Source of the DNA: Schizochytrium sp. TIO01
Lineage: Eukaryota > Sar > Bigyra > Thraustochytrida > Thraustochytriidae
Assembly: GCA_004764695.1 (NCBI GenBank)
Contig: SMSO01000025.1
Span: forward strand, 1,411,102 to 1,475,101
Direction: 5' to 3'
Length of the DNA stretch: 64,000 bases
The notes under the pieces are model-generated. The model saw nothing but the letters and a program-made list of their open reading frames with translations, was not told the origin of the DNA and did no database searches. The first letter of the stretch is position 1. Each line of letters begins with the position of its first letter. Made by a program: the position numbers and the translations under genes. This document shows positions 3,001-39,000 of the stretch, piece by piece.

Positions 3001-6000
3001 CCAGCAGTCAGAGTTATTCCACCTCCAGTCGCGGCAGAGGAGTGAGTTGACTGACCAGCAGTAACTGTTACACTTCCACCTGTCGCAGCAGGTCCACTGC
3101 CAACACTCAACGAAATTGATCCACCAGCTCCTGCAGTACCAGCTGTGCCAGTCGACACAGTGAATCCTCCAGAGTTACCACTTGAAGACGAGCCTGTTGA
3201 AATACTCACCGAACCGCTAGCTCCACTGGTACCCGCATTTGGAGTGATCAAAGTGATTGCGCCAGTTGTAATCCCAGATCCAGAGGTAAACGTCAATGCA
3301 CCTCCTGTTCCAGATGTTGAGCCACCGCCAATCAGTTGAACAGAGCCACCAACACCCGAAGATGTTGAGCCACCCGTAAGTTCCACTGAGCCGCCAGTGC
3401 CCGTACCACTTGCACCACCGCCATTCAGATTCAATGCAGCCCCGCCAGCATTAGTACCAGTGCTCGTACTCGGGCCAATCGTGATGGCACCTGAGGTTCC
3501 TGAGGTTGTAGTACCACTAGAAATCGTAACAGTTCCAGACGTACCAGTGGTTCCAGTGCCTGAAGTCAGAGAAAGAGCCCCGCCAGATGTTCCACTGCCA
3601 GCATCGATGCTTGCATCGCCTCCAACAGTACTACCTACACCAGCTGCAAGAATGAGGTCACCACCAACATCGTTGCTACTGTCACCAGCAGTGACTGTTA
3701 CTGCACCGCCAGTGCCTGAGGTGCTAGTTCCGGTTGAGATCGTGATCGAACCACCAGCCGTTGTTGCTGTACCGGTACTCAAGGTCAGCGATCCCGAAGC
3801 ACCTGCGGTTCCTGAGCCTGATCGGATGGTCACTGCACCAGAAGAAGCAGCGTCACTACTTCCAAACATAGCAGTTCCACTTGTAGTTGAACCAGATCCT
3901 GAGAACAACGACAAACCACCGCCACTTGCTCCAGACGATACTCCACCGTTGATCGTAACAGTTCCTGCCACACCTGATACACTAGTTCCCGCGTAAATGT
4001 TGACACTACCCCCTGTTGCGCTAGTTCCAGATGTCTGGCCACCACGAATTGTCACGCTTCCTGCATTCCCAGCAGTACTCAAACCAGGAATCAACTTAAT
4101 CTCACCAGTAGAACCTGCAGATGTTCCAGTTGAAATAGTGACAACCCCGTTGATCCACTTGTCGAGGAACCTGAACCCAGATCCACAGTACCAGATACTG
4201 CTGATGTTGTTCCAACCCCTGAAGTAATTGAAACTGCGCCACCCGCAGCAGACCCTTGGCCAGCAGTAAAAGTCAACGCACCTCCAGTAGCAGCATTGGA
4301 CGTTCCTGCAGAAATCGCAACAGCACCACCAGTGCCAGATGAGCTAGCGCCAGCAGTCAATGTAATTGCACCTCCAGCAACAACACTGGCAGCATTGGCA
4401 GCACCGGCCAAGATCTGAACACCACCACCAGTGCCAGTAGCACTGCCACCTGCAGATAGCTTCACAAGACCTCCGCTGCCAGCTGTGGATGCGGTGCTTG
4501 TTGATAGAGTCAATGCACCAGTTGATCCAGAGGTAGCTGTACCAGTTGAAATAGTCACAGCACCACTTGTGCCTAGAGCAGCAGTACCAGATGCGATCGT
4601 TACAGCACCACCAGCAGTTGAGCCAGCTCCAGAAGTAAGATCGATATGTCCGCCGATTCCTGCAGATGAGGCTCCTGAAGTCAAGGTGATAGCCCCACCA
4701 GTTCCAGAGCCAGTGAGTCCACCGGCAGTCAGGACGATGTTTCCTGCAGTACTAGACGTCGCACCGGTGCTGAGTGTCAATGTTCCACTAGTACCAGTGG
4801 TAGTCGTACCTGTCTTCACAGTGATTGAGCCACTGTTGGTTGCATCAGGAGTTGCAATGGTTACTGCACCACTGGAAGTTCCGTCACCAGAATTAAAACT
4901 CAACGATCCACCAGTACCAGAACTATCAGCACCGCCATCAATCGTCACATCGCCGCCAGTACCTCCGGTACTCGAGCCACCTTTCAGTACCAAGGTACCA
5001 CCTGTATTAGCTCCAGTCGTAGCTCCGGCTTGAACTGTAACATCACTGCCATCCGTACTGCTATCACCAGCACTGATCGTAACTGTACCTGCAGTAGTGC
5101 TGGCAAGTCCAGATGAAAGCACAATCGACCCAGAGGTACCGCTTGCACTTCCGGTTGACAATGTCAGAGGACCACTGAAAGATGTGGTTGCCGCCGATGC
5201 AGCACTGCCAATCGTCACGGCTCCAGAGCTAGTACTTGAACCAGAAGTAAAAACAAGCGCACCACCTATTCCACCAGTGGCGATACCCGCAGTCAGCGTG
5301 ATATCGCTTCCTGTAGTCTGGCTGGTCGAACCAACACTGAGTGTGATTGCACCTGCAGACCCACCAACCGCAGTGCCAGTTGACAACGACACGGCACCGG
5401 AAGTACCAGCACTGGAACTGCCCGTAGAAAGACCAATGGCGCCAGTTCCAGTTGATCCTGATGAAGTCAAAGTAATTGCTCCACTACTGACCGATCCAGA
5501 TCCTGACGTCACAGCGATTGCACCACCTGTGCCAGTTGTTGCCGTACCAGAACTGATCACTACTTGGCCACCAGTACCGGAGGTACTATCACCAGCGTAC
5601 ATGTTCACAGCACCACCGACCATACCAGAAGCTACAGTTTTGCCTGCGTAAATCGACACGGCTGCTCCGTTACCGCCAGAAGAGACACCAACTGACAGCG
5701 TCATTGCGCCCGCGGTACCTCCGGAGCCAGCGTTGCTGGTGGAAAGTGTTAAACTGCCACTGCCAGCAGTACTGGATGCCGCACCACTTGAAATGCTGAC
5801 AGCACCGCTTAGTCCGGTTCCTCCAGCGCCTGAAGTAATTGTAACTGCGCCACCCGCAGCAGAGCCTTGGCCTGCTGTAAATGACAAGTCACCACCCGTA
5901 GCAGCTGTAGCCTGACCTGCAGTGATGGTTACATCACCACCCGCAGTACTGCCACTGCCGACAGTTATCGAGATAGCACCTCCAGCACCACCTGTACCTG

Positions 6001-9000
6001 CGCCACCAGTCTGAATTGTAACACCACCAGTGGTACCACTTGATGATGTGCCAGTACTGATTGTGATACCGCCGCTAACTCCACTTGTACCACTGTTGGG
6101 AGTGGTCATAGAGATAGAACCACTGGTAACACCACTGCCTGAAGTGAAGGTCAATGCACCACCAGTAGTGGTAACGGAAGCTCCCGCAGTAATTGCAACA
6201 GCACCACCAGTGCCAGATGAGCTAGCACCAGCAATCAATGTGATCGCTCCTCCAACAGCGTTTGCAGCATTGGCAGCACCGGCCAAAATCTCAACACCAC
6301 CACCAGTGCCAGTAGCACTGCCACCTGCAGACAACTTTACAAGACCTCCGCTGCCAGCTGTGGATGCGGTGCTTGTTGATAGAGTCAATGCACCAGTGGA
6401 TCCAGAGGTAGCTGTACCAGTTGAAATAGTCACAGCACCACTTGTGCCTAGAGCAGCAGTACCAGATGCGATCGTTACAGCACCACCGGCAGTTGAGCCA
6501 GCTCCAGAAGTAAGATCGATGTGTCCGCCGATTCCTGTAGATGAGGCTCCTGAAGTCAAGGTGATAGCCCCACCAGTGCCAGATCCAGTGAGTCCACCGG
6601 CAGTCAGGACGATGTTTCCTGCAGTACCAGACGTTGCACCGGTGCTGAGTGTCAATGTTCCACTAGTACCAGTGGTAGTTGCACCTGTTTTGATAGTGAT
6701 CGAGCCACTAGACACTGAATCGGCACTTGAAAATGTCGCATCTCCACTGGTCGACCCTGTGCCAGTTGTAAAGGTAAGTTCACCGCCAATACCTGAAGAA
6801 CTAGAACCAGCAGATAAAATGACAGTTCCACCAACACCATTGGCGCCTTGACTAGCGCCTGCATATAATGACACAGAACCTCCAGTCTTACTTGCAGCTG
6901 TTGTTAGACCAGCAGTCAATGTAATAGTACCACCATCGTTAGTATCACCATCACCAACAGTCATCGAGATGACGCCACCACTACCAGAGGTGGCATCTCC
7001 AGTACTAACAGTAATGGAACCTGTCGATCCTTGTGCTGATGAACCAGTAGACAGCGAGATTCCACCACTAATACCAGAAGCCCCCGAGTTTGGTGTATTC
7101 AATGAAATGATTCCAGTAGTCACCCCAGAACCAGATTTCAAAATTAAAGATCCACCAGTACCAGTACTATCAGGACCGCCATCAATCGTCACATCGCCGC
7201 CAGTACCTCCAGTACTCGAGCCACCTTTCAGTACCAAGGTACCACCTGTATTAGCTCCAGTCGTAGCTCCGGCTTGAACAGTAACATCACTGCCATCCGT
7301 ACTGCTATCACCAGCACTGATCGTAACAGTACCTGCAGTAATGCTGGCAAGTCCAGATGAAAGCACAATCGACCCAGAGGTACCGCTCGCACTTCCGGTT
7401 GACAATGTCAGAGGACCACTGAAAGATGTGGTTGCCGCCGATGCAGCACTGCCAATCGTCACGGCTCCAGAGCTAGTACTTGAACCAGAAGTAAAAACAA
7501 GCGCACCACCTGTTCCACCAGTGGCGATACCCGCAGTGAGCGTGATATCGCTTCCTGTGGTCTGGCTGGTCGAACCAACACTGAGTGTGATTGCACCTGC
7601 AGACCCACCAACCGCAGTGCCAGTTGACAACGACACGGCACCGGAAGTACCAGCAGTGGAACTGCCCGTGGACAGACCAATGGCGCCAGTTCCAGTTGAT
7701 CCTGATGAAGTCAAAGTAATTGCTCCACTACTGACCGATCCAGATCCTGACGTCACAGCGATTGCACCACCTGTGCCAGTTGTTGCCGTACCAGAACTGA
7801 TCACTACTTGGCCACCAGTACCGGAGGTACTATCACCAGCGTACATGTTCACAGCACCACCCACCATACCAGAAGCTACAGTTTTGCCTGCGTAAATCGA
7901 CACGGCAGCTCCGTTACCGCCAGAAGAGACACCAACTGACAGCGTCATTGCGCCCGCGGTACCTCCGGAGCCAGCGTTGCTGGTGGAAAGTGTTAAACTG
8001 CCACTGCCAGCAGTACTGGATGCCGCACCACTTGAAATGCTGACAGCACCGCTTAGTCCGGTTCCTCCAGCGCCTGAAGTTATTGTAACTGCGCCACCTG
8101 CAGCAGAGCCTTGGCCTGCTGTAAATGACAAGTCACCGCCGGTCGAAGCTGTAGCCTGACCTGCAGTGATGGTTACATCACCACCCGCAGTACTGCCACT
8201 GCCGACAGTTAAAGAGATAGCACCTCCAGAACCACCTGTACCTGCGCCACCAGTCTGAATGGTAACACCACCAGTGGTTCCACTGGATGATGTGCCAGTA
8301 CTGATTGTGATACCTCCGCTAACTCCACTCGTACCACTGTTGGGAGTGGTCATGGAGATAGAACCACTGGTAACACCGCTGCCTGACGTGAAAGTCAATG
8401 CACCGCCAGTAACAGCATTGGACAATCCTGCAGAAATTGCAACAGCACCACCAGTGCCAGATGAGCTAGCGCCAGCCGTCAATGTGATTGCACCTCCAGC
8501 AACGACACTAGCAGCATTGGCAGCACCGGCCAAGATCTGAACACCACCACCAGTGCCAGTAGCACTGCCACCTGCAGACAACTTTACAAGACCTCCGCTG
8601 CCAGCTGTGGATGCGGTGCTTGTTGAAAGAGTCAATGCACCAGTGGATCCAGAGGTAGCTGTACCAGTTGAAATAGTCACAGCACCACTTGTGCCTAGAG
8701 CAGCAGTACCAGATGCGATCGTTACAGCACCACCAGCAGTTGAGCCAGCTCCAGAAGTAAGATCGATGTGTCCGCCGATTCCTGTAGATGAGGCTCCTGA
8801 AGTCAAGGTGATAGCCCCACCAGTGCCAGAGCCAGTGAGTCCACCGGCAGTCAGGACGATGTTTCCTGCAGTACCAGACGTTGCACCGGTGCTGAGTGTC
8901 AATGTTCCACTAGTACCAGTGGTAGTAGTACCTGTCTTCACAGTGATTGAGCCACTGTTCGTTGCATCAGGAGTTGCAATGGTTACTGCACCACTGGAAG

Positions 9001-12000
9001 TCCCGCCGCCAGACTGCAGGGTGACTGCACCACCAGTACCAGTACTTGAATCGGCGCCGCCATTAATGGTGACTTGACCGCCAGTACCAGATGCACTTGC
9101 ACCACCCGCTAGTGCGAGCGTTCCACCAACTGCAGATGCGAAAGTGGTCGCACCACCAGTCAAAGTTGCACCAGCACCATTGGCACCGGCGGTTGTGCCT
9201 GCACTAATGGTGATAGCTCCACCTGTGCCACTTGAAGCGCCAGACGCGATTGTAACATCTCCAGAGACCCCACTTGAGGAATCTCCAGTGACAATATCAA
9301 TAAAGCCACTAACAGCGCCACTCTGAGCAGCACCGGCAGCAGTAAGAATAGAAACGGAGCCACTCGATGCGCCAGTTGAAGTGCCAGCGCCTGAAGTCAT
9401 AGAAATGCTTCCGCCTGTGTTAGCACTTGAACTACCTGCGCTAAAAGTGAGGGCGCCACCAGTACCACTGCTGCTGCTACCAACAAAAAGTGAGATGTCA
9501 CCACCCTTGCCAGCCACGGCAGTACCAGTGCTTATTGTAACATCACCTGAGGATCCACCCGTAGCAGATCCAGTAGAAATTGTCAAAGCTCCTGTTGCTT
9601 GGGATGAGCTACTGGATATATCGACAGCGCCACTCGAGGTGCCGGAACCTGAGCTCAAGGTCAAAGCACCGCCAAATGCTGAGGACGAGACGCCTCCGGC
9701 AATGGTGACGCTACCTCCAATTCCGGTGCCACCAGAACCCGCAGTGATACCTACCGAACCACCAACAGTAGAGCCTTGGCCAGCAGTAAATGTCAATGCA
9801 CCGCCTGTCGCAGCTGTAGCTTGACCTGCAGTGATGGTGACACCACCACCCGCAGTACTGCCACTGCCGACAGTTATCGAGATAGCACCTCCAGCACCAC
9901 CAGTACCTGCGCCACCAGTCTGAATTGTAACACCACCAGTGGTACCACTTGATGATGTGCCAGTACTGATTGTGATACCGCCGCTAACTCCACTTGTACC
10001 ACTGTTGGGAGTGGTCATAGAGATGGAACCACTGGTAACACCGCTGCCTGACGTGAAAGTCAATGCACCGCCAGTAATAGCACTGGATAATCCTGCAGAA
10101 ATCGCAACAGCACCACCAGTGCCAGATGAGCTAGCGCCAGCAGTCAATGTAATTGCACCTCCAGCAACGACACTAGCAGAGTTGGCAGCACCGGCCAAGA
10201 TCTGAACACCACCACCAGTGCCAGTAGCACTGCCACCTGCAGACAACTTAACAAGACCTCCGCTGCCAGCTGTGGATGCGGTGCTTGTGGATAGAGTCAA
10301 TGCACCAGTTGATCCAGAGGTAGCTGTACCAGTTGAAATAGTCACAGCACCACTTGTGCCTAGAGCAGCAGTACCAGATGCGATCGTTACAGCACCACCA
10401 GCAGTTGAGCCAGCTCCAGAAGTAAGATCGATGTGTCCGCCGATTCCTGTAGATGAGGCTCCTGAAGTCAAGGTGATAGCGCCACCAGTGCCAGAGCCAG
10501 TGAGTCCACCGGCAGTCAGGACAATGTTTCCGGCAGTACTAGACGTCGCACCGGTGCTAAGTGTCAATGTTCCACTAGTACCAGTGGTAGTAGTACCTGT
10601 CTTCACAGTGATTGAGCCACTGTTCGTTGCATCAGGAGTTGCAATGGTTACTGCACCACTGGAAGTTCCGTCACCAGAATTAAAACTCAACGATCCACCA
10701 GTACCAGTACTATCAGCACCGCCATCAATCGTCACATCGCCGCCAGTACCTCCGGTACTCGAGCCACCTTTCAGTACCAAGGTACCACCTGTATTAGCTC
10801 CAGTCGTAGCTCCGGCTTGAACTGTAACATCACTGCCATCCGTACTGCTATCACCAGCACTGATCGTAACAGTACCTGCAGTAGTGCTGGCAAGTCCAGA
10901 TGAAAGCACAATCGACCCAGAGGTACCGCTTGCACTTCCGGTTGACAATGTCAGTGGACCACTGAAAGATGTGGTTGCCGCCGATGCAGCACTGCCAATC
11001 GTCACGGCTCCAGAGCTAGTACTTGAACCAGAAGTGAAAACAAGCGCACCACCTGTTCCACCAGTGGCGATACCTGCAGTGAGCGTGATATCGCTTCCTG
11101 TAGTCTGGCTGGTCGAACCAACACTGAGTGTGATTGCACCTGCAGACCCACCAACCGCAGTGCCAGTTGACAACGACACGGCACCGGAAGTACCAGCAGT
11201 GGAACTGCCCGTGGACAGACCAATGGCTCCAGTTCCAGTAGATCCTGATGAAGTCAAAGTAATTGCTCCACTACTGAGTGATCCAGATCCTGACGTCACA
11301 GCGATTGCACCACCTGTGCCAGTTGTTGCCGTACCAGAACTGATCACTACTTGGCCACCAGTACCGGAGGTACTATCACCAGCGTACATGTTCACAGCAC
11401 CACCGACCATACCAGAAGCTTCAGTTTTGCCTGCGTAAATCGACACGGCAGCTCCGTTACCGCCAGAAGAGACACCAACTGACAGCGTCATTGCGCCCGC
11501 GGTGCCTACGGAGCCAGCGTTGCTGGTGGAAAGTGTTAAACTGCCACTACCAGCAGTACCGGCTGCCGCACCACTGGAAATGCTGACAGCACCGCTTAGT
11601 CCGGTTCCTCCAGTGCCTGAAGTTATTGTAACTGCGCCACCCGCTGCAGAGCCTTGGCCTGCTGTAAATGACAAGTCACCACCCGTAGCAGCTGTAGCCT
11701 GACCTGCAGTGATGGTTACATCACCACCTGCAGTACTGCCACTGCCGACAGTTATCGAGATAGCACCTCCAGCACCACCTGTACCTGCGCCACCAGTCTG
11801 AATTGTAACACCACCAGTGGTACCACTTGATGATGTGCCAGTACTGATTGTGATACCGCCGCTAACTCCACTTGTACCACTGTTGGGAGTGGTCATAGAG
11901 ATGGAACCACTGGTAACACCGCTGCCTGACGTGAAAGTCAATGCACCGCCAGTAATAGCACTGGATAATCCTGCAGAAATCGCAACAGCACCACCAGTGC

Positions 12001-15000
12001 CAGATGAGCTAGCGCCAGCGGTCAATGTGATTGCACCTCCAGCAACGACACTAGCAGAGTTGGCAGCACCGGCCAAGATCTCAACACCACCACCAGTGCC
12101 AGTAGCACTGCCACCTGCAGACAACTTAACAAGACCTCCGCTGCCAGCTGTGGATGCGGTGCTTGTGGATAGAGTCAATGCACCAGTTGATCCAGAGGTA
12201 GCTGTACCAGTTGAAATAGTCACAGCACCACTTGTGCCTAAAGCAGCAGTTCCAGATGCGATCGTTACAGCACCACCAGCAGTTGAGCCAGCTCCAGAAG
12301 TAAGATCGATGTGTCCGCCGATTCCTGTAGATGAGGCTCCTGAAGTCAAGGTGATAGCCCCACCAGTGCCAGAGCCAGTGAGTCCACCGGCAGTCAGGAC
12401 GATGTTTCCTGCAGTACCAGACGTTGCACCGGTGCTGAGTGTCAATGTTCCACTAGTACCAGTGGTAGTAGTACCTGTCTTCACAGTGATTGAGCCACTG
12501 TTCGTTGCATCAGGAGTTGCAATGGTTACTGCACCACTGGAAGTCCCGCCGCCAGACTGCAGGGTGACTGCACCACCAGTACCAGTACTTGAATCGGCAC
12601 CGCCATTAATGGTGACTTGACCGCCAGTACCAGATGCACTTGCACCACCCGCTAGTGCGAGCGTTCCACCAACTGCAGATGCGAAAGTGGTCGCACCACC
12701 AGTCAAAGTTGCACCAGCACCATTGGCACCGGCGGTTGTGCCTGCACTAATGGTGATAGCTCCACCTGTGCCACTTGAAGCGCCAGACGCGATTGTAACA
12801 TCTCCAGAGACCCCACTTGAGGAATCTCCAGTGACGATATCAATAAAGCCACTAACAGCGCCACTCTGAGCAGCACCGGCAGCAGTAAGAATAGAAACAG
12901 AGCCACTCGATGCGCCAGTTGAAGTGCCAGCGCCTGAAGTCATAGAAATGCTTCCGCCTGTGTTAGCACTTGAACTACCTGCGCTAAAAGTGAGGGCGCC
13001 ACCAGTACCACTGCTGCTGCTACCAACAAAAAGTGAGATGTCACCACCCTTGCCAGCCACGGCAGTACCAGTGCTTATTGTAACATCACCTGAGGATCCA
13101 CCCGTAGCAGATCCAGTAGAAATTGTCAAAGCTCCTGTTGCTTGGGATGAGCTACTGGATATATCGACAGCGCCACTCGAGGTGCCGGAACCTGAGCTCA
13201 AGGTCAAAGCACCGCCAAATGCTGAGGACGAGACGCCTCCGGCAATGGTGACGCTACCTCCAATTCCGGTGCCACCAGAACCCGCAGTGATACCTACCGA
13301 ACCACCAACAGTAGAGCCTTGGCCAGCAGTAAATGTCAATGCACCGCCTGTCGCAGCTGTAGCTTGACCTGCAGTGATGGTGACACCACCACCCGCAGTA
13401 CTGCCACTGCCGACAGTTATCGAGATAGCACCTCCAGCACCACCAGTACCTGCGCCACCAGTCTGAATTGTAACACCACCAGTGGTACCACTTGATGATG
13501 TGCCAGTACTGATTGTGATACCGCCGCTAACTCCACTTGTACCACTGTTGGGAGTGGTCATAGAGATAGAACCACTTGTAACACCACTGCCTGAAGTGAA
13601 GGTCAATGCACCACCAGTAGTGGTAACGGAAGCTCCCGCAGTAATCGCAACAGCACCACCAGTGCCAGATGAGCTAGCACCAGCAGTCAATGTGATCGCT
13701 CCTCCAACAGCGCTTGCAGCATTGGCAGCACCTGCAGAAACTTGAACCGACCCCCCGACACCGGTCGCACTACCGCCAGCAGACAACACGACATTCCCAG
13801 CTGTTCCTGACGTTGCTTCACCAGTTGAAATAGTTACAGTTCCCGTTCCGGTAGTTCCAGATGTACCGGAAGATACAGTTACACCACCACTCTTCAGGCT
13901 GCCACCTGTGCCTGACGTGATTGTAACTGCACCACCACTTGTTGAGCCCTGGCCAGCAGTAAATGTCAATGCACCGCCCGTCGCAGCTGTAGCTTGACCT
14001 GCAGTGATCGTTACACCACCACCAACAGTACTGCCACTGCCGACACTCATCAAGATAGATCCTCCAGCACCACCTGTACCTGCGCCACCAGTCTGAATCG
14101 TAACACCACCAGTGGTACCACTTGATGATGTGCCTGTACTGATTGTGATACTTCCGCTAACTCCACTTGTACCACTGTTGGGAGTGGTCATGGAGATAGA
14201 ACCACTGGTAACACCGCTGCCTGACGTGAAAGTCAATGCACCGCCAGTAACAGCATTGGACAATCCTGCAGAAATCGCAACAGCACCACCAGTGCCAGAT
14301 GAACTAGCGCCAGCGGTCAATGTTATTGCACCTCCAGCAACGACACTGGCTGAGTTGGCAGCACCGGCCAAGATCTCAACACCACCACCAGTGCCAGTAG
14401 CACTGCCACCTGCAGACAACTTAACAAGACCTCCGCTGCCAGCTGTGGATGCGGTGCTTGTGGATAGAGTCAATGCACCAGTTGATCCAGAGGTAGCTGT
14501 ACCAGTTGAAATAGTCACAGCACCACTTGTGCCTAGAGCAGCAGTACCAGATGCGATCGTTACAGCACCACCAGCAGTTGAGCCAGCTCCAGAAGTAAGA
14601 TCGATGTGTCCGCCGATTCCTGTAGATGAGGCTCCTGAAGTTAAGGTGATAGCCCCACCAGTGCCAGAGCCAGTGAGTCCACCGGCAGTCAGGACAATGT
14701 TTCCGGCAGTACTAGACGTCGCACCGGTGCTAAGTGTCAATGTTCCACTAGTACCAGTGGTAGTAGTACCTGTCTTCACAGTGATTGAGCCACTGTTCGT
14801 TGCATCAGGAGTTGCAATGGTTACTGCACCACTGGAAGTTCCGTCACCAGAATTAAAACTCAACGATCCACCAGTACCAGTACTATCAGCACCGCCATCA
14901 ATCGTCACATCGCCGCCAGTACCTCCGGTACTCGAGCCACCTTTCAGTACCAAGGTACCACCTGTATTAGCTCCAGTCGTAGCTCCGGCTTGAACTGTAA

Positions 15001-27000: not shown

Positions 27001-30000
27001 ACCACTAATACCAGAAGCCCCCGAGTTTTGGTGTATTCAAGTGAAATGATTCCAGTAGTCACCCCAGAACAGATTTCAAAATTAAAGATCCACCAGTACC
27101 AGTGCTACAGCACCGCCATCAATCGTCACATCGCCGCCAGTACCGTCTCGGTACTCGAGCCACCTTTCAGTACCAAGGTTCCACCTGTATTAGCTCCAGT
27201 CGTAGCTCCGGCTTGAACAGTAACATCACTGCCATCCGTACTGCTATCACCAGCACTGATCGTAACAGTACCTGCAGTAATGCTGGCAAGTCCAGATGAA
27301 AGCACAATCGACCCAGATGTACCGCTCGCACTTCCGGTTGACAATGTCAGAGGACCACTGAAAGATGTCGTGGCCGCCGATGCAGCACTGCCAATCGTCA
27401 CGGCTCCAGAGCTAGTACTTGAACCAGAAGTAAAAACAAGCGCACCACCTATTCCACTAGTGGCGATACCTGCAGTGAGCGTGATATCGCTTCCAGTAGT
27501 CTGGCTGGTCGAACCAACACTGAGTGTGATTGCACCTGCAGACCCACCAACCGCAGTGCCAGTTGACAACGACACGGCACCGGAAGTACCAGCAGTGGAA
27601 CTGCCCGTAGACAGACCAATGGCTCCAGTTCCAGTAGATCCTGATGAAGTCAAAGTAATTGCTCCACTACTGACTGATCCAGATCCTGACGTCACAGCGA
27701 TTGCACCACCTGTGCCAGTTGTTGCCGTACCAGAACTGATCACTACTTGGCCACCAGTACCGGTGGTACTATCACCAGCGTACATGTTCACAGCACCACC
27801 GACCATACCAGAAGCTACAGTTTTGCCTGCGTAAATCGACACGGCAGCTCCCGTTACCTGCCAGAAGAGACACCAATTGACAGCGTCATTGCGCCCGCGG
27901 TGCCTCCGGAGCCAGCGTTGCTGGTGGAAAGTGTTAAACTGCCCATACCAGCAGTACCGGCTGCCGCACACTGGAAATGCTGACAGCACCGCTTAGTCCG
28001 GGTTCCTCCAGCGCCTGAAGTAAATTGTAACTGCGCCACCCGCAGCAGAGCCTTGGCCTGCTGTAAATGACAAGTCACCTCCCGTAGCAGCTGTAGCCTG
28101 ACCTGCAGTGATGGTTACATCACCACCCGCAGTACTGCCACTGCCAACAGTTAAGAGATAGCACCTCCAGAACCACCTGTACCTGCGCCACCAGTCTGAA
28201 TCGTAACACCCACCAGTGGTACCCACTTGATGATGTGCCAGTACTGATTGTGATACCGCCGCTAACGCCACTTGTACCACTGTTGGGAGTGGTCATAGAG
28301 ATGGAACCACTGGTAACACCGCTGCCTGACGTGAAAGTCAATGCACCGCCAGTAACAGCACTGGACAATCCTGCAGAAATCGCAACAGCACCACCAGTGC
28401 CAGATGAGCTAGCGCCAGCGGTCAATGTGATTGCACCTCCAGCAACGACACTAGCAGAGTTGGCAGCACCGGCCAAGATCTCAACACCACCACCAGTGCC
28501 AGTAGCACTGCCACCTGCAGACAACTTTACAAGACCTCCGCTGCCAGCTGTGGATGCGGTGCTTGTTGATAGAGTCAATGCACCAGTGGATCCAGAGGTA
28601 GCTGTACCAGTTGAAATAGTCACAGCACCACTTGTGCCTAGAGCAGCAGTACCAGATGCGATCGTTACAGCACCACCGGCAGTTGAGCCAGCTCCAGAAG
28701 TAAGATCGATGTGTCCGCCGATTCCTGTAGATGAGGCTCCTGAAGTCAAGGTGATAGCCCCACCAGTGCCAGATCCAGTGAGTCCACCGGCAGTCAGGAC
28801 GATGTTACCTGCAGTACCAGACGTTGCACCGGTACTAAATGTCAATGTTCCACTAGTACCAGTGGTAGTAGTACCTGTCTTTACAGTGATTGAGCCACTG
28901 TTCGTTGCATCAGGAGTTGCAATGGTTACTGCACCACTGGAAGTCCCGCCGCCAGACTGCAGGGTGACTGCACCACCAGTACCAGTACTTGAATCGGCGC
29001 CGCCATTAATGGTGACTTGACCTCCAGTACCAGATGCACTTGCACCACCCGCTAGTGCGAGCGTTCCACCAACTGCAGATGCGAAACTGGTCGCACCACC
29101 AGTCAAAGTTGCACCAGCACCATTGGCGCCGGCGGTTGTGCCTGCACTAATGGTGATAGCTCCACCTGTGCCACTTGAAGCGCCAGACGCGATTGTAACA
29201 TCTCCAGAGACCCCACTTGAGGAATCTCCAGTGACAATATCAATAAAGCCACTAACAGCGCCACTCTGAGCAGCACCGGCAGCAGTAAGAATAGAAACAG
29301 AGCCACTCGATGCGCCAGTTGAAGTGCCAGCGCCTGAAGTCATAGAAATGCTTCCGCCTGTGTTAGCACTTGAACTACCTGCGCTAAAAGTGAGGGCGCC
29401 ACCAGTACCACTGCTGCTGCTACCAACAAAAAGTGAGATGTCACCACCCTTCCCAGCCACGGCAGTACCAGTGCTTATTGTAACATCACCTGAGGATCCA
29501 CTCGTAGCAGATCCAGTAGAAATTGTCAAAGCTCCTGTTGCTTGGGATGAGCTACTGGATATATCGACAGCGCCACTCGAGGTGCCGGAACCTGAGCTCA
29601 AGGTCAAAGCACCGCCAAATGCTGAGGACGAGACGCCTCCGGCAATGGTGACGCTACCTCCAATTCCGGTGCCACCAGAACCCGCAGTGATACCTACCGA
29701 ACCACCAACAGTAGAGCCTTGGCCAGCAGTAAATGTCAATGCACCGCCTGTCGCAGCTGTAGCTTGACCTGCAGTGATGGTTACACCACCACCCGCAGTA
29801 CTGCCACTGCCGACACTCATCAAGATAGATCCTCCAGCACCACCTGTACCTGCGCCACCAGTCTGAATCGTAACACCACCAGTGCTACCACTTGATGATG
29901 TGCCAGTACTGATTGTGATACCGCCGCTAACTCCACTTGTACCACTGTTGGGAGTGGTCATAGAGATAGAACCACTGGTAACACCACTGCCTGAAGTGAA

Positions 30001-33000
30001 GGTCAATGCACCACCAGTAGTGGTAACGGAAGCTCCCGCAGTAATTGCAACAGCACCACCAGTGCCAGATGAGCTAGCACCAGCAGTCAATGTGATCGCT
30101 CCTCCAACAGCGTTTGCAGCATTGGCAGCACCGGCCAAAATCTCAACACCACCACCAGTGCCAGTAGCACTGCCACCTGCAGACAACTTTACAAGACCTC
30201 CGCTGCCAGCTGTGGATGCGGTGCTTGTTGATAGAGTCAATGCACCAGTGGATCCAGAGGTAGCTGTACCAGTTGAAATAGTCACAGCACCACTTGTGCC
30301 TAGAGCAGCAGTACCAGATGCGATCGTTACAGCACCACCAGCAGTTGAGCCAGCTCCAGAAGTAAGATCAATGTGTCCGCCGATTCCTGTAGATGAGGCT
30401 CCTGAAGTCAAGGTGATAGCCCCACCAGTGCCAGATCCAGTGAGTCCACCGGCAGTCAGGACGATGTTACCTGCAGTACCAGACGTTGCACCGGTGCTGA
30501 GTGTCAATGTTCCACTAGTACCAGTGGTAGTAGTACCTGTCTTCACAGTGATTGAGCCACTGTTCGTTGCATCAGGAGTTGCAATGGTTACTGCACCACT
30601 GGAAGTTCCGTCACCAGAATTAAAACTCAACGATCCACCAGTACCAGTACTTGAATCGGCACCGCCATCAATCGTCACATCGCCGCCAGTACCTCCGGTA
30701 CTCGAGCCACCTTTCAGTACCAAGGTACCACCTGTATTAGCTCCAGTCGTAGCTCCGGCTTGAACTGTAACATCACTGCCATCCGTACTGCTATCACTAG
30801 CACTGATCGTAACAGTACCTGCAGTAGTGCTGGCAAGTCCAGATGAAAGCACAATCGACCCAGATGTACCGCTTGCACTTCCGGTTGACAATGTCAGTGG
30901 ACCACTGAAAGATGTGGTTGCAGCCGATGCAGCACTGCCAATCGTCACGGCTCCAGAGCTTGTACTTGAACCAGAAGTAAAAACAAGCGCACCACCTATT
31001 CCACTAGTGGCGATACCTGCAGTGAGCGTGATATCGCTTCCAGTAGTCTGGCTGGTCGAACCAACACTGAGTGTGATTGCACCTGCAGACCCACCAACCG
31101 CAGTGCCAGTTGACAACGACACGGCACCGGAAGTACCAGCAGTGGAACTGCCCGTAGACAGACCAATGGCTCCAGTTCCAGTAGATCCTGATGAAGTCAA
31201 AGTAATTGCTCCACTACTGACTGATCCAGATCCTGACGTCACAGCGATTGCACCACCTGTGCCAGTTGTTGCCGTACCAGAACTGATCACTACTTGGCCA
31301 CCAGTACCGGAGGTACTATCACCAGCGTACATGTTCACAGCACCACCCACCATACCAGAAGCTACAGTTTTGCCTGCGTAAATCGATACGGCTGCTCCGT
31401 TACCGCCAGAAGAGACACCAACTGACAGCGTCATTGCACCGGCGGTGCCTACGGAGCCAGCGTTGCTGGTGGAAAGTGTTAAACTGCCACTACCAGCAGT
31501 ACCGGCTGCCGCACCACTGGAAATGCTCACAGCACCGCTTAGTCCGGTTCCTCCAGTGCCTGAAGTAATTGTAACTGCGCCACCCGCAGCAGAGCCTTGG
31601 CCTGCTGTAAATGACAAGCCACCACCCGTAGCAGCTGTAGCCTGACCTGCAGTGATGGTTACATCACCACCCGCAGTACTGCCACTGCCGACAGTTATCG
31701 AGATAGCACCTCCAGCACCACCTGTACCTGCGCCACCAGTCTGAATCGTAACACCACCAGTGGTACCACTTGATGATGTGCCAGTACTGATTGTGATACC
31801 GCCGCTAACTCCACTTGTACCACTGTTGGGAGTGGTCATAGAGATGGAACCACTGGTAACACCGCTGCCTGAAGTGAAAGTCAATGCGCCACCAATAGTT
31901 GTAACGGAAGCTCCCGCAGTAATTGCAACAGCACCACCAGTGCCAGATGAGCTAGCGCCAGCAGTCAACGTGATCGCTCCTCCAACAGCGTTTGCAGCAT
32001 TGGCAGCACCGGCCAAAATCTCAACACCACCACCAGTGCCAGTAGCACTGCCACCTGCAGACAACTTTACAAGACCTCCGCTGCCAGCTGTGGATGCGGT
32101 GCTTGTTGATAGAGTCAATGCACCAGTGGATCCAGAGGTAGCTGTACCAGTTGAAATAGTCACAGCACCACTTGTGCCTAGAGCAGCAGTACCAGATGCG
32201 ATCGTTACAGCACCACCGGCAGTTGAGCCAGCTCCAGAAGTAAGATCGATGTGTCCGCCGATTCCTGTAGATGAGGCTCCTGAAGTCAAGGTGATAGCCC
32301 CACCAGTGCCAGATCCAGTGAGTCCACCGGCAGTCAGGACGATGTTTCCTGCAGTACCAGACGTTGCACCGGTGCTGAGTGTCAATGTTCCACTAGTACC
32401 AGTGGTAGTAGTACCTGTCTTCACAGTGATTGAGCCACTGTTCGTTGCATCAGGAGTTGCAATGGTTACTGCACCACTGGAAGTCCCGCCGCCAGACTGC
32501 AGGGTGACTGCACCACCAGTACCAGTACTTGAATCGGCGCCGCCATTAATGGTGACTTGACCGCCAGTACCAGATGCACTTGCACCACCCGCTAGTGCGA
32601 GCGTTCCACCAACTGCAGATGCGAAAGTGGTCGCACCACCTGTCAAAGTTGCATCAGCACCATTGGCACCGGCGGTTGTGCCTGCACTAATCGTGATAGC
32701 TCCACCTGTGCCACTTGAAGCGCCAGACGCGATTGTAACATCTCCAGAGACCCCACTTGAGGAATCTCCAGTGACAATATCAATAAAGCCACTAACAGCG
32801 CCACTCTGAGCAGCACCGGCAGCAGTAAGAATAGAAACAGAGCCACTCGATGCGCCAGTTGAAGTGCCAGCGCCTGAAGTCATAGAAATGCTTCCGCCTG
32901 TGTTAGCACTTGAACTACCTGCGCTAAAAGTGAGGGCGCCACCAGTACCACTGCTGCTGCTACCAACAAAAAGTGAGATGTCACCACCCTTCCCAGCCAC

Positions 33001-36000
33001 GGCAGTACCAGTGCTTATTGTAACATCACCTGAGGATCCACTCGTAGCAGATCCAGTAGAAATTGTCAAAGCTCCTGTTGCTTGGGATGAGCTACTGGAT
33101 ATATCGACAGCGCCACTCGAGGTGCCGGAACCTGAGCTCAAGGTCAAAGCACCGCCAAATGCTGAGGACGAGACGCCTCCGGCAACGGTGACGCTACCTC
33201 CAATTCCGGTGCCACCAGAACCCGCAGTGATACCTACCGAACCACCAACAGTAGAGCCTTGGCCAGCAGTAAATGTCAATGCACCGCCCGTCGCAGCTGT
33301 AGCTTGACCTGCAGTGATGGTTACGCCACCACCCGCAGTACTGCCACTGCCGACAGTTATCGAGATAGCACCTCCAGCACCACCAGTACCTGCGCCACCA
33401 GTCTGAATTGTAACACCACCAGTGGTACCACTTGATGATGTGCCAGTACTGATTGTGATACCGCCGCTAACTCCACTTGTACCACTGTTGGGAGTGGTCA
33501 TAGAGATAGAACCACTGGTAACACCACTGCCTGAAGTGAAGGTCAATGCACCACCAGTAGTGGTAACGGAAGCTCCCGCAGTAATTGCAACAGCACCACC
33601 AGTGCCAGATGAGCTAGCACCAGCAGTCAATGTGATCGCTCCTCCAACAGCGCTTGCAGCATTGGCAGCACCTGCAGAAAGTTGAACCGACCCCCCGACA
33701 CCGGTTGCACTACCGCCAGCAGACAACACGACATTTCCAGCTGTTCCTGACGTTGCTTCACCAGTTGAAATAGTTACAGTTCCCGTTCCGGTGGTTCCAG
33801 ATGTACCGGAAGATACAGTTACACCACCACTCTTCAGGCTGCCACCTGTGCCTGACGTGATTGTAACTGCACCACCACTTGTTGAGCCCTGGCCAGCAGT
33901 AAATGTCAATGCACCGCCCGTCGCAGCTGTAGCTTGACCTGCAGTGATCGTTACACCACCACCAACAGTACTGCCACTGCCGACACTCATCAAGATAGAT
34001 CCTCCAGCACCACCTGTACCTGCGCCACCAGTCTGAATCGTAACACCACCAGTGGTACCACTTGATGATGTGCCAGTACTGATTGTGATACCTCCACTCA
34101 CTCCACTTGTACCACTGTTGGGAGTGGTCATGGAGATGGGGCCACTGGTAACACCGCTGCCTGACGTGAAAGTCAATGCACCGCCAGTAACAGCATTGGA
34201 CAATCCTGCAGAAATCGCAACAGCACCACCAGTGCCAGATGAACTAGCGCCAGCGGTCAATGTTATTGCACCTCCAGCAACGACACTAGCAGAGTTGGCA
34301 GCACCGGCCAAGATCTGAACACCACCACCAGTGCCAGTAGCACTGCCACCTGCAGACAACTTAACAAGACCTCCGCTGCCAGCTGTGGATGCGGTGCTTG
34401 TTGATAGAGTCAATGCACCAGTTGATCCAGAGGTTGCTGTACCAGTTGAAATAGTCACAGCACCACTTGTGCCTAGAGCAGCAGTACCAGATGCGATCGT
34501 TACAGCACCACCAGCAGTTGAGCCAGCTCCAGAAGTAAGATCGATGTGTCCGCCGATTCCTGTAGATGAGGCTCCTGAAGTCAAGGTGATAGCCCCACCA
34601 GTGCCAGAGCCAGTGAGTCCACCGGCAGTCAGGACAATGTTTCCGGCAGTACTAGACGTCGCACCGGTGCTGAGTGTCAATGTTCCACTAGTACCAGTGG
34701 TAGTAGTACCTGTCTTCACAGTGATTGAGCCACTGTTCGTTGCATCAGGAGTTGCAATGGTTACTGCACCACTGGAAGTTCCGTCACCAGAATTAAAACT
34801 CAACGATCCACCAGTACCAGTACTATCAGGACCGCCATCAATCGTCACATCGCCGCCAGTACCTCCAGTACTCGAGCCACCTTTCAGTACCAAGGTACCA
34901 CCTGTATTAGCTCCAGTCGTAGCTCCGGCTTGAACTGTAACATCACTGCCATCCGTACTGCTATCACCAGCACTGATCGTAACAGTACCTGCAGTAGTGC
35001 TGGCAAGTCCAGATGAAAGCACAATCGAACCAGAGGTACCGCTCGCACTTCCGGTTGACAATGTCAGTGGACCACTGAAAGATGTGGTTGCCGCCGATGC
35101 AGCACTGCCAATCGTCACGGCTCCAGAGCTAGTACTTGAACCAGAAGTGAAAACAAGCGCACCACCTGTTCCACTAGTGGCAATACCTGCAGTGAGCGTG
35201 ATATCGCTTCCTGTAGTCTGGCTGGTCGAACCAACACTGAGTGTGATTGCACCTGCAGACCCACCAACCGCAGTGCCAGTTGACAACGACACGGCACCGG
35301 AAGTACCAGCAGTGGAACTGCCCGTAGACAGACCAATGGCTCCAGTTCCAGTAGATCCTGATGAAGTCAAAGTAATTGCTCCACTACTGACTGATCCAGA
35401 TCCTGACGTCACAGCGATTGCACCACCTGTGCCAGTTGTTGCCGTACCAGAACTGATCACTACTTGGCCACCAGTACCGGAGGTACTATCACCAGCGTAC
35501 ATGTTCACAGCACCACCGACCATACCAGAAGCTACAGTTTTGCCTGCGTAAATCGACACGGCTGCTCCGTTACCGCCAGAAGAGACACCAACTGACAGCG
35601 TCATTGCACCGGCGGTGCCTCCGGAGCCAGCGTTGCTGGTGGAAAGTGTTAAACTGCCACTGCCAGCAGTACCGGCTGCCGCACCACTGGAAATGCTCAC
35701 AGCACCGCTTAGTCCGGTTCCTCCAGTGCCTGAAGTAATTGTAACTGCGCCACCCGCAGCAGAGCCTTGGCCTGCTGTAAATGACAAGTCACCACCCGTA
35801 GCAGCTGTAGCCTGACCTGCAGTGATGGTTACATCACCACCCGCAGTACTGCCACTGCCGACAGTTATCGAGATAGCACCTCCAGAACCACCTGTACCTG
35901 CGCCACCAGTCTGAATCGTAACACCACCAGTGGTACCACTTGATGATGTGCCAGTACTGATTGTGATACCTCCGCTAACTCCACTTGTACCACTGTTGGG

Positions 36001-39000
36001 AGTGGTCATGGAGATGGAACCACTGGTAACACCGCTGCCTGACGTGAAAGTCAATGCACCGCCAGTAATAGCACTGGATAATCCTGCAGAAATCGCAACA
36101 GCACCACCAGTGCCAGATGAGCTAGCGCCAGCGGTCAATGTGATTGCACCTCCAGCAACGACACTAGCAGAGTTGGCAGCACCGGCCAAGATCTCAACAC
36201 CACCACCAGTGCCAGTAGCACTGCCACCTGCAGACAACTTTACAAGACCTCCGCTGCCAGCTGTGGATGCGGTGCTTGTTGATAGAGTCAACGCACCAGT
36301 TGATCCAGAGGCAGCTGTACCAGTTGAAATAGTCACAGCACCACTTGTACCTGAAGCAGCATTACCCGAAGCTATAGTGATGGTTCCTCCGTGACTGCTA
36401 GTTGAACTGCTGGAGGAGCCAGCACTGATCTGAATTGAGCCACCAATGGCAGATAACGCAGAAGTGTCACCAGCAGTAAGGAAGAGACTGCCTCCTGTCG
36501 CAGTGTCTGAAGAACCAACAAGTAAGGAGATATCCCCGCTTGCGCCACCAAAAGCTGTTCCTGTGGAAATCTTTACTTCTCCAGATTCACCGATTGTGGT
36601 AATGCCTGTTTGTAAGTTAATTGAGCCAGATGTACCAGAGCTGCCACCATTTGCGGTTTGAATATAGATATGACCACTACTGGAACTACTTCCATAACCT
36701 GATTCAAGATATAATACTCCTCCTGTTGCACTGGTGGAACTTCCAGCATTTAAATGGACTGAGCCTCCAACAGAAGTGCCGCTGCCAACAGATAGAGTTA
36801 TATCTCCTGCCTTCCCTGCGGTTACTACTGCTCCAGTAGCCAGTAATAGCTCACCCGAGTCACCTGTGGTGGTACCACCAGTACTGAGGGAAATGTAACC
36901 TGACGAGCCTGTCGACGCAGCAGCAGCAGTACTAACAAATATCGCTCCACTGCTTGATGAGCTACCAGTTCCGGATGATAGGGTTATTGAACCGCCCGTC
37001 AATGAACTACTTTCTCCTGCAACCAGAAGTATTTGTCCACCTGCATTAGTATCACCAGTGCCAACAGACAGTGTGATATCTCCACCTGTGCCACTTGTGG
37101 CATCACCAGTCACAACCTTGAACTCTCCAGTATTACCAATGGTCGTGCTGCCAGTTGTAATCGTCACTGCACCACTGACCCCACTCGTGCCACCATCAGC
37201 AGTCACAAGTTCAATACTGCCACTGGAAGTAGCACTTCCAGCACCAGTAGTTAGTCGAATGCGACCTCCAGTACTGGAAAGACCAACACCAGATGTGATA
37301 TCGATCGAACCACCAACGCCTGCAGTGCCACCGCTGCCAGCTCCAGCTGTCAATACAATAGCACCACCAGTACCAGTGGCAGCTCTGTTCAAACCTGCAG
37401 TGATGGTAACTTGTCCACCTGTAACAACATCACCTGAGCCAACAAGCAATGAAATATCGCCACCCTTGCCAGTTGTGCCGCTGCCAGTAGAGATCAGAAC
37501 TTCACCAGCAAATCCAGTACCAGCCGTGCCAGTCGACAATGAAATACTGCCACTGGTTCCTGCACCGCCGCCATTCGGTGTGTCAATGACAATGTGACCA
37601 CTAGAAGACGCAGAACCATATCCTGATGTAAAAGTCATTGAACCTCCTGTTGCTACACTCGAAGATCCTGCAGTAAGTGCAACGAGGCCGCCAGCACCAG
37701 AAGTACCAGTGCCAACAGACAGAGTGATATCTCCACCTGTGCCACTTGTCGCATCACCAGTCACAACCTTGAACTCGCCAGTATTACCAATGGTCGTGCT
37801 GCCAGTTGTAATCGTCACTGCACCACTGACACCACTCGTGCCACCATCAGCAGTCACAAGTTCGATACTGCCACTTGAACTAGCACTTCCAGCACCAGTA
37901 GTTAGTCGAATGCGACCTCCAGTACTGGAAAGACCAACACCAGATGTGATATCGATCGAACCACCAACGCCTGCAGTGCCACCGCTGCCAGCTCCAGCTG
38001 TCAATACAATAGCACCACCAGTACCAGTGGCAGCTCTGTTCAAACCTGCAGTGATGGTAACTTGTCCACCTGTGCCAACATCACCTGAGCCAACGAGCAA
38101 TGAAATATCGCCACCCTTGCCAGTTGTGCCGCTGCCAGTCGAGATCAGAACTTCGCCAGCATATCCAGAAACTGTAGTTCCAGTGGACAATGAAATACTG
38201 CCACTTGTTCCGAGTGTGCCTCCATTTGGTGTGTCAATGACAATGTGACCACTAGAAGACGCAGAACCATATCCTGATGTAAACGTTATTGAACCTCCTG
38301 TTGCTACGCTCGAAGATCCTGCAGTAAGTGCAACCAGGCCGCCAGCACCAGAAGTACCAGTGCCAACAGACAGTGTAATATCTCCACCTGTGCCACTTGT
38401 GGCATCACCAGTTACAACCTTGAACTCGCCAGTATCACCAATGGTCGTGCTGCCAGTTGTAATCGTCACTGCACCACTGACACCACTCGTGCCACCATCA
38501 GCAGTCACAAGTTCAATACTGCCACTGGAAGTAGCACTTCCAGCACCAGTAGTTAGTCGAATGCGACCTCCCGTGTTGGAAAGACCAACACCAGATGTGA
38601 TATCGATAGAACCACCAACGCCTGCAGTACCACCACTGCCAGCTCCAGCTGTCAATACAATAGCACCACCAGTACCAGTGGCAGCTCTGTTCAAACCTGC
38701 AGTAATGGTAACTTGTCCACCTGTATCCACATTACCTGAGCCAACCAGCAATGAGATATCACCACCTTTGCCAGCTGTTGCACTACCGGTCGAGATCATA
38801 ACTTCACCAGCATATCCATTACCAGCCGTGCCAGTCGACAATGAAATACTGCCGCTTGTTCCTGTACCGCCGCCATTAGGTGTGTCAATGACAATGTGAC
38901 CACTAGAAGACGCAGAACCATATCCTGATGTAAAAGTCATTGAACCTCCTGTTGCTACGCTCGAAGATCCAGCAGTAAGTGCAACCAGGCCGCCAGCACC

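Follow-up and report, generated by a model that had tools for sequence, protein, structure and literature searches.

A young higher-order tandem repeat in the coding sequence of an apparently giant gene of Schizochytrium sp. TIO01

The 64,000-nucleotide stretch analysed here (the window) comes from the thraustochytrid Schizochytrium sp. TIO01 (GenBank assembly GCA_004764695.1, contig SMSO01000025.1, positions 1,411,102 to 1,475,101 of the forward strand), and the coding higher-order repeat that it contains is real and young and belongs to an exceptionally large gene. Hereafter called the super-repeat, it is a minus-strand tandem array of a 9,960-bp (3,320-codon) higher-order unit at positions 4266-36366. 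To follow the gene outwards we added 60 kb on each side and continued the window coordinates past both ends. The explanation we favour, with rather better than even confidence, is that the array belongs to one 105-kb gene, apparently without introns, of a heterotrophic eukaryote, and that this gene would encode one chain of ~35,060 residues (~3.2 MDa), made almost wholly of strand-turn repeats, probably secreted, with PSI domains near its N-terminus and two internal Peptidase_S74/ICA domains.

A 60-base landmark, sought on the plus strand across the whole window with up to 9 mismatches allowed, occurs ten times with 0-3 mismatches (at 5097, 7341, 10884, 15057, 17304, 20847, 25017, 27280, 30827 and 34997). 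These positions reproduce exactly the inner spacings reported by a first-pass annotation made from the letters alone, namely 2,244/3,543/4,173, 2,247/3,543/4,170 and 2,263/3,547/4,170 bp. At an offset of 9,960 bp, self-BLAST aligned 22,173 columns in one piece, 97.4% of them identical (4266-26398 against 14226-36366), and chance is ruled out as the source of this recurrence. The array measures 32,101 bp, or 3.22 copies as counted in the assembly, close to the 3.2 first proposed; the limits of 4285 and 36348 given at that time were correct to within about 20 bp. On the minus strand the copies run from 4266 to 14225 (A), 14226 to 24185 (B), 24186 to 34165 (C) and, for a partial copy, 34166 to 36366 (D). 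Pairwise alignment of the copies, which the annotation had proposed as a check, gave identities of 97.5% (A-B), 97.0% (A-C), 96.7% (A-D), 97.7% (B-C), 98.2% (B-D) and 97.2% (C-D), each comparison with the partial copy D covering 2,200 or 2,201 columns. The period is a whole number of codons and the repetition is in frame, as had been stated: copies A and B lie within a single stop-free frame (4094-25669).

Each period is itself composed of three related sub-blocks, alike at their starts and spaced 748-749, 1,181 and 1,390-1,391 codons apart; one period in the register of the first-pass annotation, for instance, occupies 5097-15056 of the minus strand, with sub-block spacings of 2,244, 3,543 and 4,173 bp from a common landmark. 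In copy C the first two spacings are enlarged by a patch of indels described below. What characterizes a higher-order repeat is that related shorter sub-blocks follow one another in fixed order to form a long period, and here this is seen in ten landmarks and three recurring spacings. Over their common 1.58-kb part the ten sub-blocks are 94.9-99.5% identical, and their tree does not simply follow position: A3 and B1 are 99.5% identical and A1 joins B3 and C3 (100/100), the exception being the second sub-blocks A2, B2 and C2, which group by position (100/99). When 107 segments of 300 bp were compared, the best match was out of register in 58, tied in 25 and in register in 24, a count that is biased by the larger number of out-of-register comparators and has no null model behind it; 11 of the 24 in-register segments had no out-of-register partner, and one of the 58 out-of-register segments had no in-register partner. 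The excess of comparators does not account for segments such as that at 6066, which is 0.894 identical in register and 0.997 out of register. A clean duplication of the unit would leave in-register copies the closer ones, and outside the second sub-blocks this was not what we found. Since 58 of the 107 segments matched best out of register, it seems that sequence was exchanged between sub-blocks after the duplication. The earlier claim that the block was duplicated as a unit therefore stands for the order of the sub-blocks, which does repeat as a unit, but not for their sequences, which have been mixed.

Purifying selection acts on the super-repeat and also on a second minus-strand array of ~44 units of 651 bp (217 codons), which occupies 37054-64000 and runs on to 65566 outside the window. 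Differences between copies A and B fall at first, second and third codon positions in numbers of 41, 37 and 166. The ratio of non-synonymous to synonymous divergence (dN/dS) is 0.19 for A-B, 0.178 for A-C, 0.176 for A-D, 0.139 for B-C and 0.163 for B-D; the sixth pair, C-D, gave 0.278 from 130 codons only. For copy C we used codons from 28260 on, so that the indel patch and the part of C preceding it are excluded. Pooling 39 complete units of the 651-bp array yielded dN 0.100 and dS 0.624, a ratio of 0.16. Because dS among the super-repeat copies (0.046-0.080) is well below this pooled value, the super-repeat is the younger of the two, though it must be kept in mind that divergence is reset by exchange.

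The array is less secure in copy C, where 32 frame-shifting indels private to that copy crowd into a patch at 25661-28222 on the minus strand. Copies A, B and C show 36 gap events in all; the 32 just mentioned have lengths that are not multiples of three, and the other four are each 3 bp long. Frame-shifting indels in copy C thus number 32 per 2,531 aligned columns in the patch and 0 per 7,415 elsewhere, whereas its private substitutions amount to 0.0162 per column in the patch (41/2,531) and 0.0127 outside it (94/7,415). Among the single-base events of the patch, 22 of 28 alter a base run or double a base. The 9,980-bp spacing ending at the last landmark had been ascribed to an indel-rich stretch, and indeed it equals the 9,960-bp period plus a net 20 bp from indels limited to 25661-28222. 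Gene decay should also lift substitutions, and these rise only slightly, so the patch is probably unpolished long-read sequence.

It may therefore be asked whether the copy number is partly a product of assembly, with units joined or miscounted at the patch. The concentration of indels with barely raised substitutions is the mark of raw long reads, and arrays of this kind collapse easily; the concern about mis-assembly expressed in the first-pass annotation is justified for 25661-28222, the spot at which an error in copy number would be likeliest. Yet long reads can separate the full copies, which show 228-297 differences (2.3-3.0% of aligned sites), and the copy-private substitutions of A (0.0123) and B (0.0101) are similar to those of C outside the patch. 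Likewise, a 1,001-bp probe found at least 20 matches in the assembly (64.06 Mb in 37 contigs), and among the matches listed all lie inside the array and none on a spare contig. We regard an assembly product as unlikely, albeit the most serious of the alternatives, and the figure of 3.22 copies in the assembled sequence stands, pending reads.

The whole window (1-64000) forms the middle of the giant gene, which on the minus strand extends from a Met at about 99359 to a stop at -5829. It reaches 35 kb and 5.8 kb past the window ends, and the super-repeat makes up about 30% of it. From the first chosen Met to the last stop there are 105,189 bp, or 35,063 codons including the stop; on account of indels we round the protein to about 35,060 residues, with an estimated mass of 3.17 MDa. 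An open reading frame (ORF) scan found six long minus-strand frames that tile this length and leave 2,453 bp uncovered: 85926-99431, 53303-85948 (the longest, 32,646 bp or 10,882 codons), 44925-53402, 28123-45009, 4094-25669 and -5826 to 4343. Of the five breaks between them, the four isolated ones show overlapping frames, across which the strand-turn repeat pattern carries, and the fifth leaves a gap at 25.67-28.12 kb. Judged from the open frames, without an intron predictor, an intron is apparent nowhere in the 105 kb.

Alignment with paralogous sequence bears on three of the isolated breaks, all on the minus strand. At 4144 a run of C is one base shorter than in the paralogous copy of a 1,260-bp unit (the alignment has two further gaps, both past the end of the 1,260-bp homology), and at 53304 one base is missing whichever of the four neighbouring 651-bp units is taken for comparison, with additional gaps in one of these alignments. 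At 44925-45009, where two open frames overlap, there is a small cluster of indels relative to neighbouring 651-bp units that was not reduced to one change. The fourth isolated break has no paralogue for comparison, and a run of six C lies there near 85.91 kb. We infer that the breaks are sequence errors, in which case the six frames would form one chain. A group of neighbouring genes, or introns at the breaks in one gene, would also give frame changes at ~85.94, 53.30, 44.95 and 4.14 kb as well as in the stretch 25.67-28.12 kb, and eukaryotic genes usually have introns. Against this, the same repeat pattern crosses the overlapping frames at the four isolated breaks, two of the breaks are single-base differences from paralogous copies with nothing inserted, and in the first frame we saw a Met together with a hydrophobic leader (the later frames had no systematic search for start sites), so that we consider such an arrangement improbable. 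That the gene is a decaying pseudogene with real frameshifts, its protein no longer made, would fit the breaks present in the assembly but is very improbable, given dN/dS of 0.14-0.19 in five of six young-copy pairs and 0.16 in the older array, the 3-bp length of the other four gap events among copies A, B and C, and the packing of 32 indels into one 2.5-kb patch where substitutions do not rise to match.

The strand-turn repeats follow the motif G-x-h-x-h-x-x-G, which occurs 1,790 times per 34,397 residues compared with a mean of 126 in 20 shuffles. Fifteen residues is the commonest spacing in all six frames and the repeats are mostly 14-18 residues long, a regular strand-turn period such as marks beta-helix or beta-solenoid sequences; runs of seven or more consecutive repeats of exactly 15 residues were not found within the window. 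Gly, Ser, Thr and Ala together make up 57-75% of residues across the six frames. In two control spans one minus frame contained the motif 306 and 566 times, against 0-2 in any of the other five. Plus-strand ORFs of 150-293 residues in the array were set aside as mechanical shadows of the minus frame, the motif being nearly confined to that one frame. No family scored above the Pfam cut-off in five repeat pieces from the window or in PHROGs for two of them, and a PDB sequence search with a profile of the 651-bp unit returned chance-level matches only (E 0.73-0.84). The C-terminal 201 residues had no Pfam or PHROGs match, the chain's last ~95 residues being likewise unmatched.

Outside the repeats, the N-terminus has a hydrophobic leader after the Met (judged by eye, without a predictor), because of which the protein is probably secreted, and near it are PSI domains (PF01437, two stretches above the Pfam cut-off, E 3.3e-6). 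Two internal Peptidase_S74/ICA domains (PF13884) lie at 80.2 and 78.4 kb, outside the window, with E values of 3.1e-15 and 2.6e-10 and scores of 56.6 and 40.9 bits against a cut-off of 22 (59.2 and 43.3 bits in the genome search). Their Ser codons, at 80236 and 78448, correspond to about residues 6375 and 6971 of ~35,060. Both domains carry a Ser-Lys dyad with the two residues five apart (SDRRIK and SDQRIK), and the Ser and Lys are invariant in all five aligned rows. A profile of five S74 regions had three matches in the PDB, one to MYRF (7dc3) at 3.6e-15 and two weak ones, to a phage neck appendage (0.0092) and to a long tail fibre (0.0099). In PHROGs, ten families matched the S74 region, nine of them tail families (tail-fibre families down to 4.2e-29) and one a virion structural protein.

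The closest solved relative by sequence, MYRF, thus resembles the giant protein in having an internal S74/ICA domain in a eukaryotic protein, with Ser and Lys five apart. Its dyad is S587/K592, alanine mutants of which remain uncleaved (PMC8326128), and it trimerizes and cleaves itself (PMC3742443, PMC8326128), the N-terminal part being a trimer (PMC3742443). The giant gene differs from MYRF in having two ICA domains within a giant, repetitive and probably secreted chain, and the scanned pieces, which cover only a minor part of the N-terminal 11,000 residues, gave no match to a DNA-binding domain. Endosialidase-type phage tailspikes and tail fibres also join S74 to a repetitive fibre, as the PHROGs tail-fibre families reflect. 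In tailspikes the ICA domain sits C-terminally and is released once folding is complete, whereas both ICA domains of the giant protein are internal, with ~28,000 residues after the second.

Such likenesses could suggest a recent arrival from a virus or bacterium of something akin to a phage tail fibre rather than a host gene, but this is very improbable: to the S74 domains, the tail-fibre profiles, weak structural matches to uncultured phage proteins, and S74-profile matches to 5 stretches from viruses and 98 from bacteria or archaea (80 of these 98 kept) are opposed the low identity of the 85 loci listed (23-44% in the best segment, in a comparison of the S74 segment whose surroundings may carry repeats), the animal origin of the closest solved relative, the repeat-bearing relatives that include a EukProt entry and one named Lagenidium giganteum, and the PSI domains at the N-terminus.

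For the repeats themselves, a model of the 217-residue unit built from 36 rows of the window (42-99% identity to the first) had a pLDDT (predicted local distance difference test) of 79.1 and a pTM (predicted template modelling score) of 0.70. In a Foldseek search of BFVD its best three matches were uncultured phage proteins (E 2.4e-5 to 1.2e-3, root-mean-square deviation 9-18 Angstrom). A solenoid or triple-beta-helix fold is proposed because of the sequence period and the S74 partners.

Several observations weigh against reading the gene as one giant fibrous chain. Four isolated breaks and one 2.5-kb patch interrupt the frame, a single chain of 35,060 residues depends on taking these breaks as sequence errors, and those at 44.95 and 85.9 kb were not reduced to a single change. 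The Pfam scan covered only a minor part of the N-terminal 11,000 residues. A 434-residue structure model on 34 close rows had a pLDDT of only 38.6; in the 217-residue model DSSP assigned nothing, Foldseek found no PDB match for it, and its seven BFVD matches are weak, the best two with TM scores to the query of 0.52-0.53 and deviations of 9-13 Angstrom. With the low-complexity filter on, the 217-residue unit was without a match at E 1e-5 in 50,697 phage records.

Taking a single giant chain as the preferred reading, we propose that the tandem copies arose by unequal exchange followed by partial homogenization between sub-blocks, and that the product is most likely a secreted fibre protein. Its repeats would stack into a beta-solenoid or triple-beta-helix thread of ~1.1 micrometre (~2,260 coils of 15.5 residues, each assumed to add 0.48 nm). 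By analogy with MYRF and phage tailspikes, the ICA domains would join three chains and may cut the chain at two places. Repeat number could then set fibre length in a structure of the surface, wall or ectoplasmic net, a role that we guess from secretion and shape. A bolder version, which we put forward tentatively and consider doubtful as a whole, is a single-exon, titin-sized extracellular chain that folds and cuts itself: the two internal ICA domains would bring three chains of 35,000 residues together as a trimer and cut them near residues 6375 and 6971, releasing a PSI-bearing anchor of ~6,400 residues, a 600-residue linker and a ~28,000-residue fibre. The micrometre length of that fibre would be set by unequal exchange of 3,320-codon and 217-codon units and would vary between strains as a surface trait.

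Titin (connectin) is the natural comparison for size; it grew by repeat duplication and has a super-repeat organization of its own. Human titin has 38,138 residues, 114 kb of exons and a largest exon of 17,106 bp, so that the giant protein would be ~92% of its length (PMC12198301). Titin, however, is a muscle protein of Ig and FN3 domains encoded by many exons, whereas the repeats of the giant gene are of another kind and its longest unbroken frame, 32,646 bp, is nearly twice titin's largest exon. PKZILLA synthases are longer than the giant protein. Passages of PMC12300183 mention them and give no size. The Giant1-5 proteins of Apilactobacillus kunkeei are likewise very long extracellular proteins under purifying selection, with dS 4-8 times dN, but they are bacterial, 3,000-8,000 residues long and alpha-helical in the repeats of Giant1-3; no mention of S74 in them was met in the available part of that report, within which no search aimed at S74 was made (PMC12863079). 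A literature search covering titles and abstract openings, with subscription papers mostly outside its coverage, found no description of the giant gene, and an Aurantiochytrium proteome paper (PMC12221091) does not mention S74, giant, repeat, plexin or 'amino acids long'.

If the frame is confirmed, the protein would be among the longer ones predicted for a eukaryote, and in one exon, although not a record. The ingredients are known; what is unusual is the size, the combination, the internal pair of ICA domains and the apparent single-exon scale. The gene would unite phage-type self-processing chaperone domains, a strand-turn fibre and coding higher-order repeats exchanged in the manner of satellite DNA, features that are usually found apart. 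Two questions become testable: can a cell fold and cut a multi-megadalton chain by means of built-in ICA domains, and does the length of the array tune a surface structure? Our results also suggest that gene models from short reads would miss or shred such genes.

Relatives of the giant protein were sought in three homologue searches, which scored the candidates sharing most words (2,383, 7,989 and 7,993) and found 4, 1 and 13 proteins among them, with P0005 in two. P0001 and P0002 combine internal S74 domains with the same strand-turn repeats, P0001 (2,114 residues) having two SDxRIK dyads and an ADSRIK; unlike the giant protein they are shorter models, perhaps fragments, the identity being 31% over 68% of the query region for P0001 and 29% over 74% for P0002. 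The ADSRIK belongs to a third S74 copy, after residue 1322 of P0001, in which Ala replaces the cleaving Ser, possibly a non-cutting ICA. P0011, P0012 and P0015 also have S74. P0007, labelled Lagenidium giganteum (an oomycete), has the repeats, with 43% identity over 5% of the query, and P0010 is labelled as an alanyl-tRNA ligase of Durusdinium trenchii. In its own genome the 217-residue unit had at least 151 matches (150 of 215 candidates scored), and those listed are all in the giant gene. S74 domains also occur elsewhere in the assembly. Near the C-terminus, the usual tailspike-like order, they are found in open frames of 463 residues (L026:3942-5330, plus strand, G000:C34) and 1,268 residues (L027:4860-8663, minus strand, G000:C6). 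In a third, single open frame (L028:2382-5450, minus strand, G000:C36), S74/ICA is N-terminal of ATAD3_N and AAA ATPase domains, a pairing not previously known to us.

Other parts of the giant gene are repetitive as well, all on the minus strand. Each unit of the 651-bp array holds 14 strand-turn repeats, counted by eye, and one unit within 59858-61159 has RLDYRRWHTAS where others have RLTTGAGTAS, which may reflect a local frame change that compensates itself. Beside the edge of the super-repeat, the 1,260-bp unit is present twice (1699-4237) at 99.8% identity, the closest tandem pair among those listed, and an array of a ~1,023-bp unit lies at -5246 to -1111. By contrast with these arrays, the first ~11,000 residues are encoded almost without repeated 15-base words.

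As to the host, a diatom or photosynthetic alga was set aside, for the genome had no match to a silicon transporter or to a light-harvesting protein. It does have frames of a PfaA-type polyunsaturated fatty acid (PUFA) synthase at C4:608161-617209 (three rows above the cut-off, with neighbours). A PfaA-type PUFA synthase without photosynthesis marks thraustochytrids, and bacteria have PfaA too. The pattern in this genome would fit a thraustochytrid such as Aurantiochytrium. On another contig, an open frame of 5,651 residues (G000:C3:857186-871321) has several matches to parts of the PfaA model and is perhaps a large polyketide or fatty-acid synthase. Partial large-subunit ribosomal RNA sequence (L032:5933-7839) lies in the last 10 kb of G000:C34, near the contig end, as if subtelomeric.

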